Assembly (NCBI GenBank): GCA_003599885.1
Contig: QZKW01000066.1
Coordinates: 1-64,000 of the forward strand
Direction of reading: 5' to 3'
Origin: Desulfobacteraceae bacterium
GTDB lineage: Bacteria > Desulfobacterota > Desulfobacteria > Desulfobacterales > Desulfosalsimonadaceae
DNA length: 64,000 nt
Position numbers and translations under genes: made by a program. The notes under the pieces are model-generated. The model did no database searches and was not told the DNA's origin. It saw only the letters and a list, made by a program, of their open reading frames with translations. Positions 44,079 through 48,792 of the stretch are shown here, one piece after another. Every line of letters starts with the position of its first letter. Within the stretch, counting starts at the first letter, position 1.

Positions 44079-44415
44079 TTTCTCTCCTCCGCAGAAATTA
44101 ATTTCCACTTAAATATAATACAAATAACGTGCCAGATTTCTCAGGATTATCATCCTGAACTGAAAAAGGCGCTGGTTATAAGATAACCCGCTAAGATAGA
44201 AAATAATATGAAAAAATTTATATTTTAAAATTTTAAGATGTTTTTAAAAACGGCGTGACAAGGAACACCTATGGGCATGGATACTATTAAATTTTTTAAT
44301 AGTATATAAAATTAATTTAAGGCCGGTGATTCTGGATATGGAATAATCGATGATGCGGGAATCAAGCCAAATGAAGACATACTGCGCTCAAAAATGATAG
44401 CAAATGATGACGGGG
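44079..44415. other. Intergenic region between fimT and purQ
   Basis: These 337 bases lie between the promoter-proximal end of the pilus operon and the 3' end of purQ. They contain the sigma-54 promoter candidate and a strongly A/T-rich stretch (about 44195-44330) that could hold activator or IHF sites. No gene is evident. Confidence 0.45.
44119..44134 (-). promoter_or_regulatory. Candidate sigma-54 promoter of the pilus operon
   Basis: On the minus strand the 16 bases read TGGCACG-TTAT-TTGTA. The sigma-54 consensus is TGGCAC-N5-TTGC(A/T), so only the C of the -12 element differs. Transcription would start near 44108, 30 bases before fimT. The surrounding DNA is A/T-rich, suiting IHF. An NtrC-type activator is encoded at 27883-29259. 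Confidence 0.65.
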
Positions 44416-45234
44416 TTACAAGAAATACCCCACTGCGTTTTCAAAGATGCGGATGCCGGTCACCGGCAAATCGTCCGGTGCCATTTGTCCGCGCCGGATC
44501 AATTCCTTCCGGTAGCTCCATTGGGGGTGGTTGGCGGGATGGTTGAAGGCTTCCGGGTGGGGCATAAGACCGAACACGCGGCCTGTGGTGTCGCAGATAC
44601 CGGCGATATCCATCATGGCGCCGTTGGGGTTAAAGGGGAATTTATTATCTGCCAGGGTGCCGTCCGGCAGGGCGTATTGGCAGACCACCTGGTGATTTTC
44701 AAGAAGCTGTTTCATCACGGCGTCCTCCGCCACGAACTTGCCTTCACCGTGGCGAACCGGCAGGTCGATAATTGTTATGTTCCGCGTGAACACGCACGGA
44801 GAATCGGAATTGACAGAAAGCGTCACCCAGTCATCCCTGAAATTACCGCAGTCGTTATAGGTCAGGGCCACGGATCGCTGTTTGTAATTGTTGTCAAAAC
44901 CGGGCAGCAGGCCCAGGTTGACAATGGTCTGAAATCCGTTGCAGATGCCGATCACCAGATTGCCGCTCTCGATAAACCGCGTGATCTTTTCGCCGACCGT
45001 GTGCTTCATCCGCACCGCCTGAACCACGCCGGCCCCGTGATCGTCTCCCCAGCTGAATCCACCGCCGAACACCATGATCTGATAATCATCAATTACTGCT
45101 GACCCGTCGATAATGGCATTGATATGCACCCGGTGGGCGCTCGCCCCGGCAAGCTCCAGAGCATAAACGGTTTCATTGTCGCAGTTGAGGCCGTAGCCGG
45201 TCAATACCAGGGCATTAATGGTTGAGATCGTCAT
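44416..45234 (-). CDS. purQ: Phosphoribosylformylglycinamidine synthase, glutaminase subunit
   Basis: PurQ releases ammonia from glutamine for PurL in purine synthesis. The 272-residue product has the class I amidotransferase nucleophile in VIGICNGFQT (Cys about 97) and the His-Glu pair in LMPHPEAFNHP (about 230). It belongs to the longer PurQ form seen with PurS-PurL fusions. ATG 45234 has no clear ribosome-binding site. The bases before it belong to the repeat region of the inserted GxxExxY cassette, which separates it from purL. Confidence 0.95.
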   Translation of the reverse strand: MTISTINALVLTGYGLNCDNETVYALELAGASAHRVHINAIIDGSAVIDDYQIMVFGGGFSWGDDHGAGVVQAVRMKHTVGEKITRFIESGNLVIGICNGFQTIVNLGLLPGFDNNYKQRSVALTYNDCGNFRDDWVTLSVNSDSPCVFTRNITIIDLPVRHGEGKFVAEDAVMKQLLENHQVVCQYALPDGTLADNKFPFNPNGAMMDIAGICDTTGRVFGLMPHPEAFNHPANHPQWSYRKELIRRGQMAPDDLPVTGIRIFENAVGYFL

Positions 45235-45239
45235 TTTAT

Positions 45240-45370
45240 TTTTTCACCACAGAGACAGTATTTATTATTTTTTCCCGCAGAGGCGCTGAGACGCTGAGAA
45301 ATGAATATGGGAGGAGACGACCTGTCCCATATCCAATTTTTTCTCTGCGCCTCCGCGCCTCTGCGGGAAA
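45240..45370. repeat. Large imperfect hairpin made of two inverted copies of a GC-rich repeat
   Basis: Copy A (45271-45301) and copy B (45340-45370) are 31 bases each and reverse complements at 28 positions. Between them an inner perfect 8-base inverted repeat (ATATGGGA 45305-45312, TCCCATAT 45325-45332) extends the fold. Left of copy A, CACCACAGAGACAG (45246-45259) looks like a further end of the same repeat family. The hairpin begins four bases after the stop of the GxxExxY gene and could end its transcript, although purQ lies beyond. Confidence 0.85.
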
Positions 45371-45374
45371 CCAT

Positions 45375-45758
45375 TTATTCTTCAAGTCTGTTGACACATC
45401 GGGTAATACCACATTTCATCAGAACCTCACCAAAGTTCAACAGATATCCAAGTTTGCATCCGGTTAGCCGCAGATAGGTTTGCACTTGCTTTTTGTGTGA
45501 AGCACTCGCCTGTTCAATGGATTTCAGTTCCACAATGACCTTGTCTTCGACAACCATATCCGCCCGAAAAGCGGCATCAAATCGTATGCCTTTGTACTCG
45601 ATTGGCACAGTAACCTGCCGTTTGACCTTCAGTCCCCGGTCTTCCAGTTCTCGGGCAAGAACAATTTCATACACCGTTTCCAAAAGGCCAGGACCCAATT
45701 CCCGGTGTACCTCAATGGCCGCCTCGATCACCATCGTTCCGATTTCATTTTCATTCAC
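45375..45758 (-). CDS. GxxExxY protein, PD-(D/E)XK nuclease-fold family
   Basis: The 127-residue product carries the naming motif GLLETVY (about 24-30) and a nuclease-like core with Asp in FRADMVVED followed by VELK, as in PD-(D/E)XK enzymes (PDDEXK_3 type). Its biochemical function is not established. The start is GTG 45758; GGAGG eight bases upstream lies inside repeat copy C, so the repeat itself supplies the ribosome-binding site. The gene sits between purL and purQ, which are normally adjacent, and is flanked by three repeat copies. I infer a small mobile cassette of unknown transposition mechanism. Confidence 0.85.
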   Translation of the reverse strand: MNENEIGTMVIEAAIEVHRELGPGLLETVYEIVLARELEDRGLKVKRQVTVPIEYKGIRFDAAFRADMVVEDKVIVELKSIEQASASHKKQVQTYLRLTGCKLGYLLNFGEVLMKCGITRCVNRLEE

Positions 45759-45788
45759 TCTCTGCGCCTCCGCGTCTCTGCGCGAGAT
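45757..45788. repeat. Third repeat copy (C) at the 5' end of the GxxExxY gene
   Basis: Bases 45759-45782 match 45342-45365 of copy B at 23 of 24 positions in the same orientation, so copies B and C form direct repeats around the GxxExxY gene. The copy lies just after the purL stop on the minus strand and contains the Shine-Dalgarno and the start codon edge of the cassette gene. Confidence 0.85.
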
Positions 45789-45795
45789 ACATTTT

Positions 45796-48792
45796 TTATA
45801 TCAATTCTCCAAAGGGCTTTTTCCATGCAATTTTTAAATCGGCCAAGGAAAGAGATATCAGCATTCCTCCTTCCCGACACCGGACATTTAAAACCGGGGT
45901 TTCGGTCACCATGCCGATACAGGCACACGGAATTTTTGCACAGACGGATTCAAACGCTGCCCGGTTTTGGGGCGCGATGGTGATAATCAATCTGCCGGCG
46001 GATTCTGAAAACAAAAGCCTGTCCGGACGCAAGGGAGCGCTGGCAGGCACCAGCCCCAGATCAATGTCCAGCCCCAGATTCCCGCCCATAGCCGTCATGG
46101 CCAGATGCACCGCGAGACCGCCGCGATAAACGCCGTGGGCAGAGACCACGAGTTCTTTTTGGATGGCCTGAAAAACCGCAGCATATACGGATTTAAATGT
46201 TTCCGGGTCAACTTCCGGCACGTTTTTACCCAGATACCCGAACAGATCATAATATTCGGATGCGCCGAGCTCATTTCGGGTGTCCCCCAGAACGTATACC
46301 AGATCGCCTGCGCATTTAACGTCCATGGTCACGCATTTTTCAATGTCCGCCACAACGCCGACGGTTGAGAACTGCATGGTTTCAAGGGCGGATATCTTAT
46401 GGGTCTCGCCAAATTTTCCTGGCAAGTGGCCGTCCACATACATGCTGTCCTTACCGGACAGGAGCGGAATACCATAGGCTAGGCACAAGTCCGCCAGAGC
46501 CTTGCAAGACCGGACCAGTTGGGCCGCCTTGAATTTGCCGTCCGGATTGTGGATTGGGTGATACTGAATGTTTGGCCAGCAGAAATTATCCACCCCTCCG
46601 ATATGGTCCGGATCGCCGCCCACAGCCACCATCCGCCGCACCGCTTCATCAATGGTGCAACTGGTCATGTGATAGGCGTCAACAGCTGAATACATGGGCA
46701 ACAGAGCCTGGGTAAATACAATCCCCCGGGTTGATCCAAGCACCGGCCGAATCACCGTCGCATCAGAGTTCACATCCCGGTCCCGGCCAACGAGGGGCTT
46801 GATAACGCTGCCGCCCTGGACTTCATGGTCATACTGTCGGGTAATCCATTCCTTGGAACAGATATTGGGCCGGGCCATCAGTTCCAGCAATACCGCCGCA
46901 TAATCACCGGGTTCGCCGATTACCGGTTCATGGAGCCCCCGAAGTTCAGGCGGCTGCCAGACGGCGTCAAACTCCCACCTGGGAAAACCGGATTTGAGCA
47001 AATCCATGTCCACATAGGCACAGGTTTTGTCATTATAGGTGATGTGGAGTTTGCCGGAATCGGTATACTCGCCGATCACCGTGCTTTCCACTGCGTGCCG
47101 AAGGCTGAGTTCCATAAACCGGTCGATATGTTCGGGTTTGACAGCCACGGTCATGCGTTCCTGGGACTCGGATATCCAGATTTCCCATTGATCCAGACCG
47201 TCGTATTTCAGGGGCACTTTTTCCAGAAACACCCGGCACCCGTCCGACATCATGGCGGTTTCGCCGATGGATGAGGACAGCCCGCCCCCGCCGTTGTCCG
47301 TGATATAGGCGATCAGCCCCTCGTCCCTGGCTTCCAGAAGAAAATCGTGCATTTTTTTCTGGGTGTAGGGATCACCGATCTGAACATGACCAGCCGGTGT
47401 ATTTTCAGAAAATGTTTCCGATGAAGCGGTCACCCCGTGAATGCCGTCTTTTCCCACGCGCCCGCCGCACATGATGATCAGCTCTCCCGGTGCGGTGGTT
47501 TTGGTCTCTGTCGGACGGCCGGCGGCAACTTCGGGCATCAGGCCAATAGCAGTCACAAACACCAGGCACTTGCCCATATATCCCGGATGAAACGTCACCT
47601 GGCCAAAACCTGTGGGGATGCCGCTTTTGTTTCCCCCGTCCCGGACGCCTTCAATGACGCCGTCGAGCAAGCGGCGGGGATGGAGCCTGGGCTTAAGATC
47701 TCCGCTGTAGTCCCTGTGCCCCACACAGAATCCGTAGCTGCCCATGATGAGTTTGGAACCCAGGCCAGTGCCCATGGGATCTCTGTAAACCCCAACAATT
47801 CCGGTGATGGCACCGCCATAGGCTTCCATATTGGACGGGGAATTGTGGGTCTCTCCCGTGATGGTGTAATAATGGTCGGCGTCAAACCGGCCCACCCCTG
47901 CATTGTCCCATAACACGGAGACCACCCATTCTTTTTTGTCTGCAAGGGCCAGGGTGGGCGCCTGAATGCAGGTCTTAAAAAGGCTGTGGATGATTTCGGT
48001 CTCGCCGGTTGCCGCATCCATATAAGTAAAAACGCCTTGAAACGTATTGTGGCTGCAATGATCCGACCGGGCCTGGGAAATATATTCCAGCTCAACATCC
48101 GTGGGCTCGGACAGGCCCACCCGCTTTCTTTGCGCCTGCACCTCCGGGTTTTGAAAATACGACCGGATAACCGGCACATCATTGGGATTTAAGGCAAGAT
48201 TGCGCTCGTTGCTGACCTTTTGAAGCGCGGCATCCGAGTCCATGGGAATGGTCGACACAGTGGGGGTATGGTCCAGACGCACCCTGGGGATAATATAACC
48301 GATGCCTTGCCGGGAATCCCACTGGTCACGGCCAAAAACCATGACCTGCTGGATGATATCATTCGCCAGCAATTCGCCTGCGATAAGATCCACCTGGAGC
48401 CGGGTCAGATGCGGCCCATTAAGGCAATACCTGCGGGATGTGTACACAGCCTCACCGGGTGCGAACTTGCGGCTCAAAACATCTTCAATGGCTTCCGCGG
48501 CCGTACTGCCCGGATTGTCCTTTACCCCTGGCCGGTAGCCGACCCAGATGCACCAGTCAAAATCCAAAGGCAGCGGTTCATAGGAGGACGTCTGAGTCAC
48601 CGGGTTAGTGAAAATTTCGGCCTGGATCGTCTTTAACTGCCCGGGTGACAAATCCGCATCAATGGTCAACACATGGACGGTGCGCACCGCATCCAGCGCG
48701 ATATCAAAATAAGATGCCGCTTTACTGCATATCCCGTGGCCTTCAGCATCAAACAAATCAGATTTTAATGTAATTTCAAGTCGGTATGGCAT
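45796..48792 (-). CDS. purL: PurS-PurL fusion, phosphoribosylformylglycinamidine synthase
   Basis: The 998-residue product converts FGAR to FGAM using ammonia from PurQ. The N-terminal about 165 residues look like two PurS-like units (PYRLEITLKSDLFDAEG and a later RRYCLNGPHLTRLQVDLIAGELL), fused to the FGAM synthase core. Core motifs include SDHCSHNTFQG, GETHNSPSNMEAYGGAITGIVG, TGFGQVTFHPGYMGKCLVFV, GGGGLSSSIGE and YGIPLLSGKDSMYVDG. A separate PurQ follows downstream. ATG 48792 has a weak ribosome-binding site; rseP ends 20 bases upstream. Confidence 0.95.
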   Translation of the reverse strand: MPYRLEITLKSDLFDAEGHGICSKAASYFDIALDAVRTVHVLTIDADLSPGQLKTIQAEIFTNPVTQTSSYEPLPLDFDWCIWVGYRPGVKDNPGSTAAEAIEDVLSRKFAPGEAVYTSRRYCLNGPHLTRLQVDLIAGELLANDIIQQVMVFGRDQWDSRQGIGYIIPRVRLDHTPTVSTIPMDSDAALQKVSNERNLALNPNDVPVIRSYFQNPEVQAQRKRVGLSEPTDVELEYISQARSDHCSHNTFQGVFTYMDAATGETEIIHSLFKTCIQAPTLALADKKEWVVSVLWDNAGVGRFDADHYYTITGETHNSPSNMEAYGGAITGIVGVYRDPMGTGLGSKLIMGSYGFCVGHRDYSGDLKPRLHPRRLLDGVIEGVRDGGNKSGIPTGFGQVTFHPGYMGKCLVFVTAIGLMPEVAAGRPTETKTTAPGELIIMCGGRVGKDGIHGVTASSETFSENTPAGHVQIGDPYTQKKMHDFLLEARDEGLIAYITDNGGGGLSSSIGETAMMSDGCRVFLEKVPLKYDGLDQWEIWISESQERMTVAVKPEHIDRFMELSLRHAVESTVIGEYTDSGKLHITYNDKTCAYVDMDLLKSGFPRWEFDAVWQPPELRGLHEPVIGEPGDYAAVLLELMARPNICSKEWITRQYDHEVQGGSVIKPLVGRDRDVNSDATVIRPVLGSTRGIVFTQALLPMYSAVDAYHMTSCTIDEAVRRMVAVGGDPDHIGGVDNFCWPNIQYHPIHNPDGKFKAAQLVRSCKALADLCLAYGIPLLSGKDSMYVDGHLPGKFGETHKISALETMQFSTVGVVADIEKCVTMDVKCAGDLVYVLGDTRNELGASEYYDLFGYLGKNVPEVDPETFKSVYAAVFQAIQKELVVSAHGVYRGGLAVHLAMTAMGGNLGLDIDLGLVPASAPLRPDRLLFSESAGRLIITIAPQNRAAFESVCAKIPCACIGMVTETPVLNVRCREGGMLISLSLADLKIAWKKPFGELI

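Follow-up and report, generated by a model that had tools for sequence, protein, structure and literature searches.

Inverted arms with an ORF in the loop between them are familiar from the intervening sequences of 23S rRNA, which carry an S23/IVP ORF. Inverted terminal arms are likewise typical of MITEs and other internally deleted transposons, from which gene-less derivatives arise by internal deletion and which also occur as solo hairpins. Among nucleases, the QxxxY motif is linked with the Cas4/RecB/lambda-exonuclease group; Cas4 itself has a four-cysteine Fe-S cluster and belongs to CRISPR loci.

In the available text of PMC8266576 and PMC3116915, REPtrons and the REPIN-RAYT system are described as a small enzyme gene edged by palindromic REPs, with dispersed hairpins formed by inverted pairs and with co-evolution of enzyme and repeat, the RAYT phylogeny being given as largely congruent with species (PMC3116915). 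The Rpn/YhgA-like PD-(D/E)XK recombination-promoting nucleases have been proposed to act in gene acquisition, and the available text reports little if any sequence specificity for RpnA (PMC5350276).

We describe here an insert with a gene of the GxxExxY family, found in a window (the whole stretch of DNA analysed, 64,000 nucleotides) from a Desulfobacteraceae bacterium. Cas4, RecB and lambda exonuclease offer the closest solved folds and the same QxxxY motif; unlike Cas4, the window protein is a stand-alone protein of 127 aa with no evident Fe-S cluster, and its neighbours are purL and purQ. With the 23S rRNA intervening sequences and PF05635 genes, GxxExxY loci share the ORF in the loop and the tandem words, but the four-helix-bundle protein is unrelated and the words differ. 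Inverted arms, internally deleted forms and solo hairpins are shared with MITEs, whereas, in contrast to a pair of IS and MITE, no DDE or other transposase lies between the arms; a target duplication was looked for by eye and not seen. As in a REPtron, the gene is bordered by dispersed repeats that co-evolve with the enzyme; measured against the REPtrons described in those texts, however, the enzyme is of the PD-(D/E)XK and not of the HUH/Y1 type, and the arms are tandem 7-nt words and not the REP palindromes described. The insert would thus work like a REPtron but is none, since REPtrons are defined by their HUH enzyme, which the insert lacks. GxxExxY genes are also spread widely across phyla, unlike the largely species-congruent RAYTs (PMC3116915, available text). 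Rpn (PF04754) and GxxExxY proteins are both PD-(D/E)XK but fall into different Pfam families, and the available text of PMC5350276 mentions no cognate flanking repeats for Rpn. In the open PubMed Central literature, to which the search was confined, we found neither an account linking repeats to GxxExxY genes nor biochemical data on GxxExxY proteins; where GxxExxY is named there, the passage does not concern repeats, and PF13366 is merely listed. The pairing of a nuclease gene with word hairpins, which recurs in many bacterial phyla, suggests a type of miniature mobile element not yet described.

The insert between purL and purQ

The two flanking ORFs, taken to be purL and purQ, are separated in the window by about 560 bases, in which the GxxExxY gene lies between arms of about 30 nt, each made of three tandem CGCAGAG-type words. 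The features are given below; throughout, G-numbers denote genomes (G000 is the window's own), L-numbers fetched loci, and C-numbers after a genome its contigs.

44416-45234, minus strand: purQ, downstream neighbour; ORF with homologues in 6 of 11 genomes of the genus, the window's own counted
45243-45258, plus strand: half-arm left over from a second type of hairpin, with a ACCACAGAG word (CACAGAG-type), recognised by eye
45268-45374, minus strand: complete hairpin B-loop-A; DNA folding -41.4 kcal/mol, z -11.9
45271-45301, plus strand: copy A, inverted 3' arm; completes the hairpin B-loop-A and forms with C the outer pair of inverted arms
45340-45370, minus strand: copy B, second 5'-type arm, just past the stop codon, where it makes up the left side of the downstream hairpin
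45375-45758, minus strand: GxxExxY gene, GTG start, 127 aa, QxxxY motif; PD-(D/E)XK nuclease fold by profiles and predicted structure
45759-45787 (about), minus strand: copy C, 5' arm in gene orientation, abutting the start codon; three tandem CGCAGAG-type words
45796-48792, minus strand: purL, upstream neighbour; ORF whose C-terminus is conserved in 6 genomes

Read along the gene, arm C (5') comes first and is followed by the gene, the second 5' arm (B), the loop and the 3' arm A. The first-pass annotation had placed a GxxExxY gene and three repeat copies between purL and purQ, with A inverted and B and C direct around the gene, and both points were confirmed by the ORF, the profile matches and the repeat alignment (B against C, 93% over 27 nt in direct orientation; A against B, 90% over 31 nt inverted); it had also noted that there is no transposase, and the arms indeed enclose the GxxExxY gene only. 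New relative to that annotation are the place of C next to the start codon, the outer inverted pair formed by A and C, and the half-arm at 45243-45258. The 24-nt core pattern has three matches in the 64-kb window at up to three mismatches, against a mean of 0.00 in 100 shuffles. The form B-loop-A is that of solo hairpins elsewhere in G000 (e.g. L012, L014, L018 and L021), and half-arms like the one at 45243-45258 were seen by eye at the purL-purQ junctions of G002, G006 and G010, with the other half in G004. A search of 44300-46200 against Rfam gave five matches to miRNA models, all far under the gathering score.

The GxxExxY protein

The window protein exceeds the curated cut-offs of PF13366 (PDDEXK_3; 3.2e-42, 144 bits against 22), its only Pfam match, and TIGR04256 (GxxExxY; 7.1e-42, 142.4 against 35). 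Across 28 homologues, D67, E77 and K79 never vary and E27, Q91 and Y95 hardly do (full-length numbering). The AlphaFold2 model of the window protein (pLDDT 96.4) has its best PDB match in 4ic1 (SSO0001, a Cas4; Foldseek E 7.2e-4, VIA Z 9.6), and the Foldseek matches that follow include LHK-Exo and lambda exonuclease. The PD-(D/E)XK-like fold noted for the family at first reading was thus borne out by profiles, active-site residues and structure matches, and from the conserved D...ExK and the predicted restriction-endonuclease-like fold we place the window protein in the PD-(D/E)XK superfamily. Nuclease activity is likely, given the fold matches and the invariant D67, E77 and K79. The protein has three cysteines, none of them conserved across the 28 homologues, so that no Fe-S cluster is evident. 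PADLOC returned weak Cas4-like matches for three of four proteins, the window protein among them (E 0.003-0.02), and matches to PHROGs were weak only, the best (6.8e-06) being to a CRISPR-associated family. Values of dN/dS were 0.04-0.26 in 15 of 16 gene pairs, the 16th being saturated, and the protein is therefore under purifying selection. Double GxxExxY domains occur at L108 and L109, together with longer palindromic flanks, and on two contigs (G073:C610 and G057:C82) the domain is found in very long ORFs of 932 and 1035 aa.

Word arms beside other GxxExxY genes

Inspected by eye, the flanks of GxxExxY genes follow a common plan, in which arms of about three 7-nt words are spaced at 8-10 nt and the words are of many kinds (among those seen are CGCAGAG, CACGGAT, CACAGAC, CGCAGAT, CACGAAG, ACAGGAT and TCAGGAT); in the cleanest cases, e.g. 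L036, L041, L164 and L168, the arms enclose the gene directly. The fetched loci of relatives contained 100 genes or fragments, 93 of them with enough flank for a test of repeats shared upstream and downstream, and in 66 of these 93 the repeat common to both flanks lay above the 95th percentile for mismatched pairs of flanks, in 45 above the 99th. A controlled test covered 151 of 158 genes, those flanked by 160 nt or more on both sides, and 1076 other positions in the same loci as controls. Inverted-repeat scores of at least 32 were reached at 74 of the 151 genes versus 2 of the controls; a word score of at least 3 was obtained at 131 genes versus 29 controls and one of at least 5 at 74 versus 2, with a word list that was picked by eye from the flanks, later extended, and applied unchanged to the controls. 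For the 89 genes that score 28 or more for inverted repeats, the arms have a median length of 30 nt, with a median of 31 nt between the 5' arm and the start codon and of 11 nt between the stop codon and the 3' arm. When folded alone, the stretch with the 3' arm of G008 gave a z of only -0.23, a weak fold that is expected because it holds one arm without its partner.

To the question raised by the first-pass annotation, whether repeats flank other GxxExxY genes, the answer is therefore yes for most of those tested, in many phyla and with words differing by lineage. Terminators or chance as the source of the repeats were rejected, since both the words and the arms go with GxxExxY genes and with the lineage of these genes.

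The word follows the protein lineage

Of the 158 genes, 138 were given a word and 20 received none. Protein identity correlated with 6-mer similarity of the flanks (Mantel r 0.279; maximum of 2000 permutations 0.077), also after removal of 46 pairs with homologous flanks (r 0.274; maximum of 2000 permutations 0.071). The nearest protein neighbour with non-homologous flanks carried the same word in 77 of 138 cases (5000 permutations: mean 11.7, maximum 30), and 51 word changes were counted on the protein tree versus at least 94 in 200 shuffles. Where the words were shuffled within genomes only (51 genes, 18 genomes), 24 matches were observed versus a mean of 6.9 and a maximum of 17 in 10,000 shuffles; genome composition is therefore not the cause of the covariation. 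Among the mismatched nearest neighbours, 41 of 61 differ by one letter. Such covariation of protein and word is the pattern that a DNA-binding protein and its site would give, and it strongly implies that the encoded protein recognises its own arms.

Residues 122 and 125 (of 127) associate with CGC versus CAC words (Fisher 1.7e-15 and 8.2e-22), with median p of 0.0625 and 0.125 in an independent-pairs test. A specificity site in these C-terminal residues is thus only a lead, because the association is not significant once relatedness is corrected for. In two Verrucomicrobia loci, L134 and L150, flanks and gene are homologous and the words of the 5' arm change from CGCAGAG to CGCAGGG type, a drift of the word at apparently one site.

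Distribution across genomes and phyla

GxxExxY genes are patchily distributed: a match at E <= 0.001 was found in 57 of 116 genomes, 53 of which pass the curated cut-off, and the number of matches per genome, fragments counted, is 1-10. Homologues of the window protein at 60-81% identity were found in GTDB genomes, and the best 80 of at least 461 confirmed relatives come from Deltaproteobacteria, Verrucomicrobia, Planctomycetes, Lentisphaerae, Chloroflexi, Nitrospirae, Nitrospinota, Gammaproteobacteria, several candidate phyla and, as the one archaeal source among these 80, a Candidatus Altarchaeum bin (L141); one genome occurs in both sets, L128 being a record of G008. Nearly all genomes with homologues are metagenome bins, and single odd placements may for this reason be contamination. 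On a protein tree of 69 tips with an assigned phylum (16 phyla), we counted 31 phylum changes versus a mean of 44.9 and a minimum of 40 in 200 shuffles, from which it follows that phylum structure exists, yet that there has been much transfer. The DNA of the Nitrospinota locus L139 and of the Altarchaeum bin is 79.5% identical over 409 bp.

The viral_contigs set gave 35 pattern matches but no relative, and 50,697 phage records gave no match; on these two sets, phage as the vector was rejected. Of 72,556 plasmid records, 8 match, all at less than 60% identity.

Gene and arms as a unit, and their history at purL-purQ

Between copies at different sites that are 85-95% identical, the alignment runs from about -40 relative to the start codon to at most +122 relative to the stop. 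L070 and L071 agree at 95.1% over 530 bp, which comprise chiefly gene and arms, with another short downstream stretch that looks shared; two genes of L071 agree at 94.8% over 501 bp, and L164 and L168 at 88.8% over 448 bp. Few neighbours are shared among the 158 loci (the 46 homologous-flank pairs), and old copies have been kept at one site in L168/L174/L184 and L134/L150. That arm, gene and arm form a mobile unit is likely. Of the compact element moving with its repeats that had been suggested from the window, the unit of gene plus repeats is strongly supported by flanks, word tracking and alignments; a target-site duplication was not seen by eye at the compared junctions, where the relatives are too diverged for an exact empty site.

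The purL-purQ region was surveyed in 11 genomes of the genus, six of which have a purQ match, and six junctions were readable, that of G010 from the purL side. The gene lies between CGCAGAG arms in G000, G008 and G010; G006 has both arms and only a C-terminal gene remnant between them; G002 and G004 have no gene and a junction of about 70-100 bp with CACAGAG-type half-arms. The earlier statement that purL and purQ normally abut therefore stands for two of the six junctions, whereas three, the window included, hold the gene and one the remnant. Relatives with a gene-less junction do exist, but an exact empty site or a duplication could not be defined from them.

A tree of the six purL genes separates G000 and G008 from the remaining four genomes with a support of 97.6, and the empty genomes are among these four, with weak support. 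Occupied genomes thus flank the one well-supported split, for which reason the gene is probably old at purL-purQ and hence probably not a fresh insertion. Early presence followed by later losses would be the simplest history; one gain with losses and repeated gains both fit the purL tree because its inner nodes are weak. A protein 76% identical to that of the window, with the same word, occurs at another site in another family (L050), downstream of a gene whose end looks like gatB.

A decay series was also found, to which the remnant between the arms of G006 belongs. Three genes in three genomes have internal deletions (L071:2176-2415, L080:1639-1806 and L265:332-679), each starting in the GxxExxY motif or directly behind it and taking out the middle of the protein together with the catalytic D. 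These truncated genes are plausible intermediates on the way to gene-less hairpins.

Dispersed copies

The window's own genome has three GxxExxY genes, all flanked by repeats of differing sequence: CGCAGAG at the window gene, CGCAAAG-like arrays on C8 (L002) and, on C31 (L003), a 54-nt direct repeat (94%) with a 36-nt inverted repeat (78-81%) of CGCGAAAG/CACAAAG type. A further 13 places carry CGCAGAG-type repeats but no GxxExxY gene, the repeats being paired arms wherever the stretch was inspected, and a second CGCAGAG pattern has 28 matches in this genome, three of them within the insert. The reversed-pattern control of the first repeat search (26 hits versus 20) was uninformative because the pattern reads almost identically backwards. 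The whole-genome search that had been recommended thus found the repeat well beyond the window, but at places without the gene, the other two GxxExxY genes carrying other words. Four copies of about 170 bp in this genome (L004, L008, L009 and L010), similar by eye and starting TTTATATGAAAATAT, hold paired CGCAGAG arms tail-to-tail as a larger repeated element.

Among the 116 genomes, arrays of the three words tested concentrate where the matching protein clade occurs. Arrays of CACGGAT (at least 3 hits) were found in 4/4 genomes with its clade versus 6/112 without, of CACAGAC (at least 3) in 6/6 versus 8/110, or 7/10 versus 7/106 when the clade was widened to CGCAGAC-type members, and of CGCAGAG (at least 5) in 4/4 versus 7/112. 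For these counts, clade membership was decided by hand on the basis of protein motifs at a stage when the words were known, the thresholds were set after the counts were seen, and the gene's own flanks were counted. Six non-cognate pairings of word and clade gave no significant association (p 0.07-1). With CACGGAT hits less than 2 kb from the gene removed, by a near/far split counted by hand, at least one hit remained in 4/4 versus 16/112 genomes (p 0.0007) and at least three in 3/4 versus 6/112 (p 0.0013). The reversed control also has matches, e.g. in G049, G105 and G109 for CACGGAT, in G046 and G111 for CACAGAC and in G043 for CGCAGAG.

Several genomes are rich in a word and have no detected matching gene, namely G001, G007, G041, G043 (135 hits), G054, G105 and G108 for CGCAGAG (at least 5 hits), and eight genomes, including G046 (64) and G113 (38), for CACAGAC (at least 3). 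The single GxxExxY match in G043 belongs to a gene with the word CACAGAC. Nested elements were noticed in G043 (L273:1050-1440 and L272:800-1250), the ACAGGAT arms of L273 lying inside the loop of a CACGGAT hairpin.

Help in trans had been considered at first reading. In a search of 40 of the 116 relatives, no Y1_Tnp match was found in the repeat-rich G043 and G046 (the latter 83% complete), which makes help from a Y1/RAYT transposase unlikely; the words score at one of 27 Y1_Tnp loci and are absent at 26, and by arm score alone 3 of 22 such loci reach 32. A Y1/RAYT transposase acting in trans is therefore not supported.

Proposed mechanism and alternatives

The explanation towards which we lean, with modest confidence, is that the insert is a gene-bearing miniature hairpin element whose nuclease recognises its own word and drives the spread, the solo hairpins being non-autonomous derivatives. 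Such an element would consist of two inverted arms, each a tandem triplet of a 7-nt word, with a one-domain GxxExxY nuclease in the loop, and gene-less hairpins with the same arms would derive from it, partly by internal deletion. The arms could fold once single-stranded, at the replication fork, in transcription or by extrusion; the nuclease would then bind the word array and cut at or near the hairpin, and released or copied hairpin DNA would be inserted elsewhere via host replication and repair. Binding, cutting and cutting as the driver of movement we infer from the patterns described above, and it is plausible that the nuclease itself performs the cut. Against this explanation stand the PF05635 genes with their like architecture, the word-rich genomes in which no matching gene was detected, the old copies kept at one site and the 20 genes that received no word.

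Another possible explanation is homing, in which hairpins pre-exist and have spread in some other way, the nuclease cuts an empty cognate loop, the gene is copied in by homologous repair on the arms, and re-cutting is thereby blocked. The position of the gene in the loop, at the short median distances found for 89 genes, the nuclease-like fold with its active-site residues and the cognate solo hairpins in the same genomes would all fit; however, gene and parts of the arms occur together across phyla at about 80% DNA identity, for which pre-existing sites alone give no explanation, and the spread of the hairpins themselves is left unexplained, so we consider homing unlikely. It might also be that the hairpins are moved by something else, be it a Y1/RAYT enzyme, a reverse transcriptase or template switching by the host, and that small genes such as GxxExxY and PF05635 are captured passengers. 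Two unrelated protein families with the same architecture would be expected then, as would the hairpin-rich genomes that lack a matching gene. Passengers should nevertheless be interchangeable, whereas the word tracks the protein lineage even within one genome; the lexicons of the two families differ, only 2 of 28 PF05635 loci scoring in the GxxExxY lexicon (with a crude choice of start codon), and the Y1_Tnp results for G043, G046 and the Y1_Tnp loci also speak against it. We regard the passenger explanation as improbable.

Finally, the arms could be operators or processing sites and the protein a regulator or a defence or stress nuclease of the host, with the repeats spread by recombination only. 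Purifying selection, the long time for which the gene has stayed at purL-purQ and at certain sites in Verrucomicrobia, and the weak Cas4-like PADLOC matches would agree with a host function, but the patchy occurrence in scattered phyla, the internally deleted and dispersed solo copies and the scarcity of shared neighbours argue against it, and we hold it to be very improbable.

If the hairpin element driven by its own nuclease is the right reading, a further enzyme class would join bacterial mobile DNA, a set of dispersed hairpin repeats would be explained, and a natural series of nucleases would be at hand in which DNA specificity has shifted letter by letter. The new part is the pairing of nuclease and word hairpins, and it would be less new if another enzyme drives the movement. 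In any event, a large nuclease family of 'unknown function' gains a testable role, with the likely recognition word adjoining each gene.

A second family within hairpin arms

Genes of PF05635 (23S rRNA IVP, four-helix bundle) are present in 79 of the 116 relatives. From a sample of 30 fetched loci (L306-L335), 28 had enough flank, and 18 of these have inverted arms (score of at least 32) versus 0 of 152 control positions. The words seen by eye (AGAAGTCAG, GGACTGAG, CAGTGGT and AGCTAACAGC) are tandem and unlike those of GxxExxY genes, and protein and word are correlated (r 0.61; maximum of 5000 permutations 0.26, with homologous-flank pairs kept in). PF05635, by annotation not a nuclease, has the same ORF-in-hairpin architecture, for which a nuclease is consequently not needed. 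These data support a general rule by which the encoded protein recognises its arms; they weaken the claim that nuclease activity moves the unit, and other routes may exist. We suggest, tentatively and as a possibility that falls short of a favoured reading, a general and undescribed ORF-in-hairpin class of bacteria and archaea, in which a small protein would recognise the tandem-word arms enclosing it, and co-evolve with them letter by letter; the unit would pass from phylum to phylum with no transposase or recombinase known for it, and GxxExxY and PF05635 would be two independent branches with lexicons of their own.

Genes of the two families were also seen, by eye, at most 5 kb apart in at least 10 places (G060:C71, G115:C94, G115:C95, G063:C13, G038:C73, G051:C65, G051:C121, G084:C1 near 941k, G077:C7 and G058:C32).
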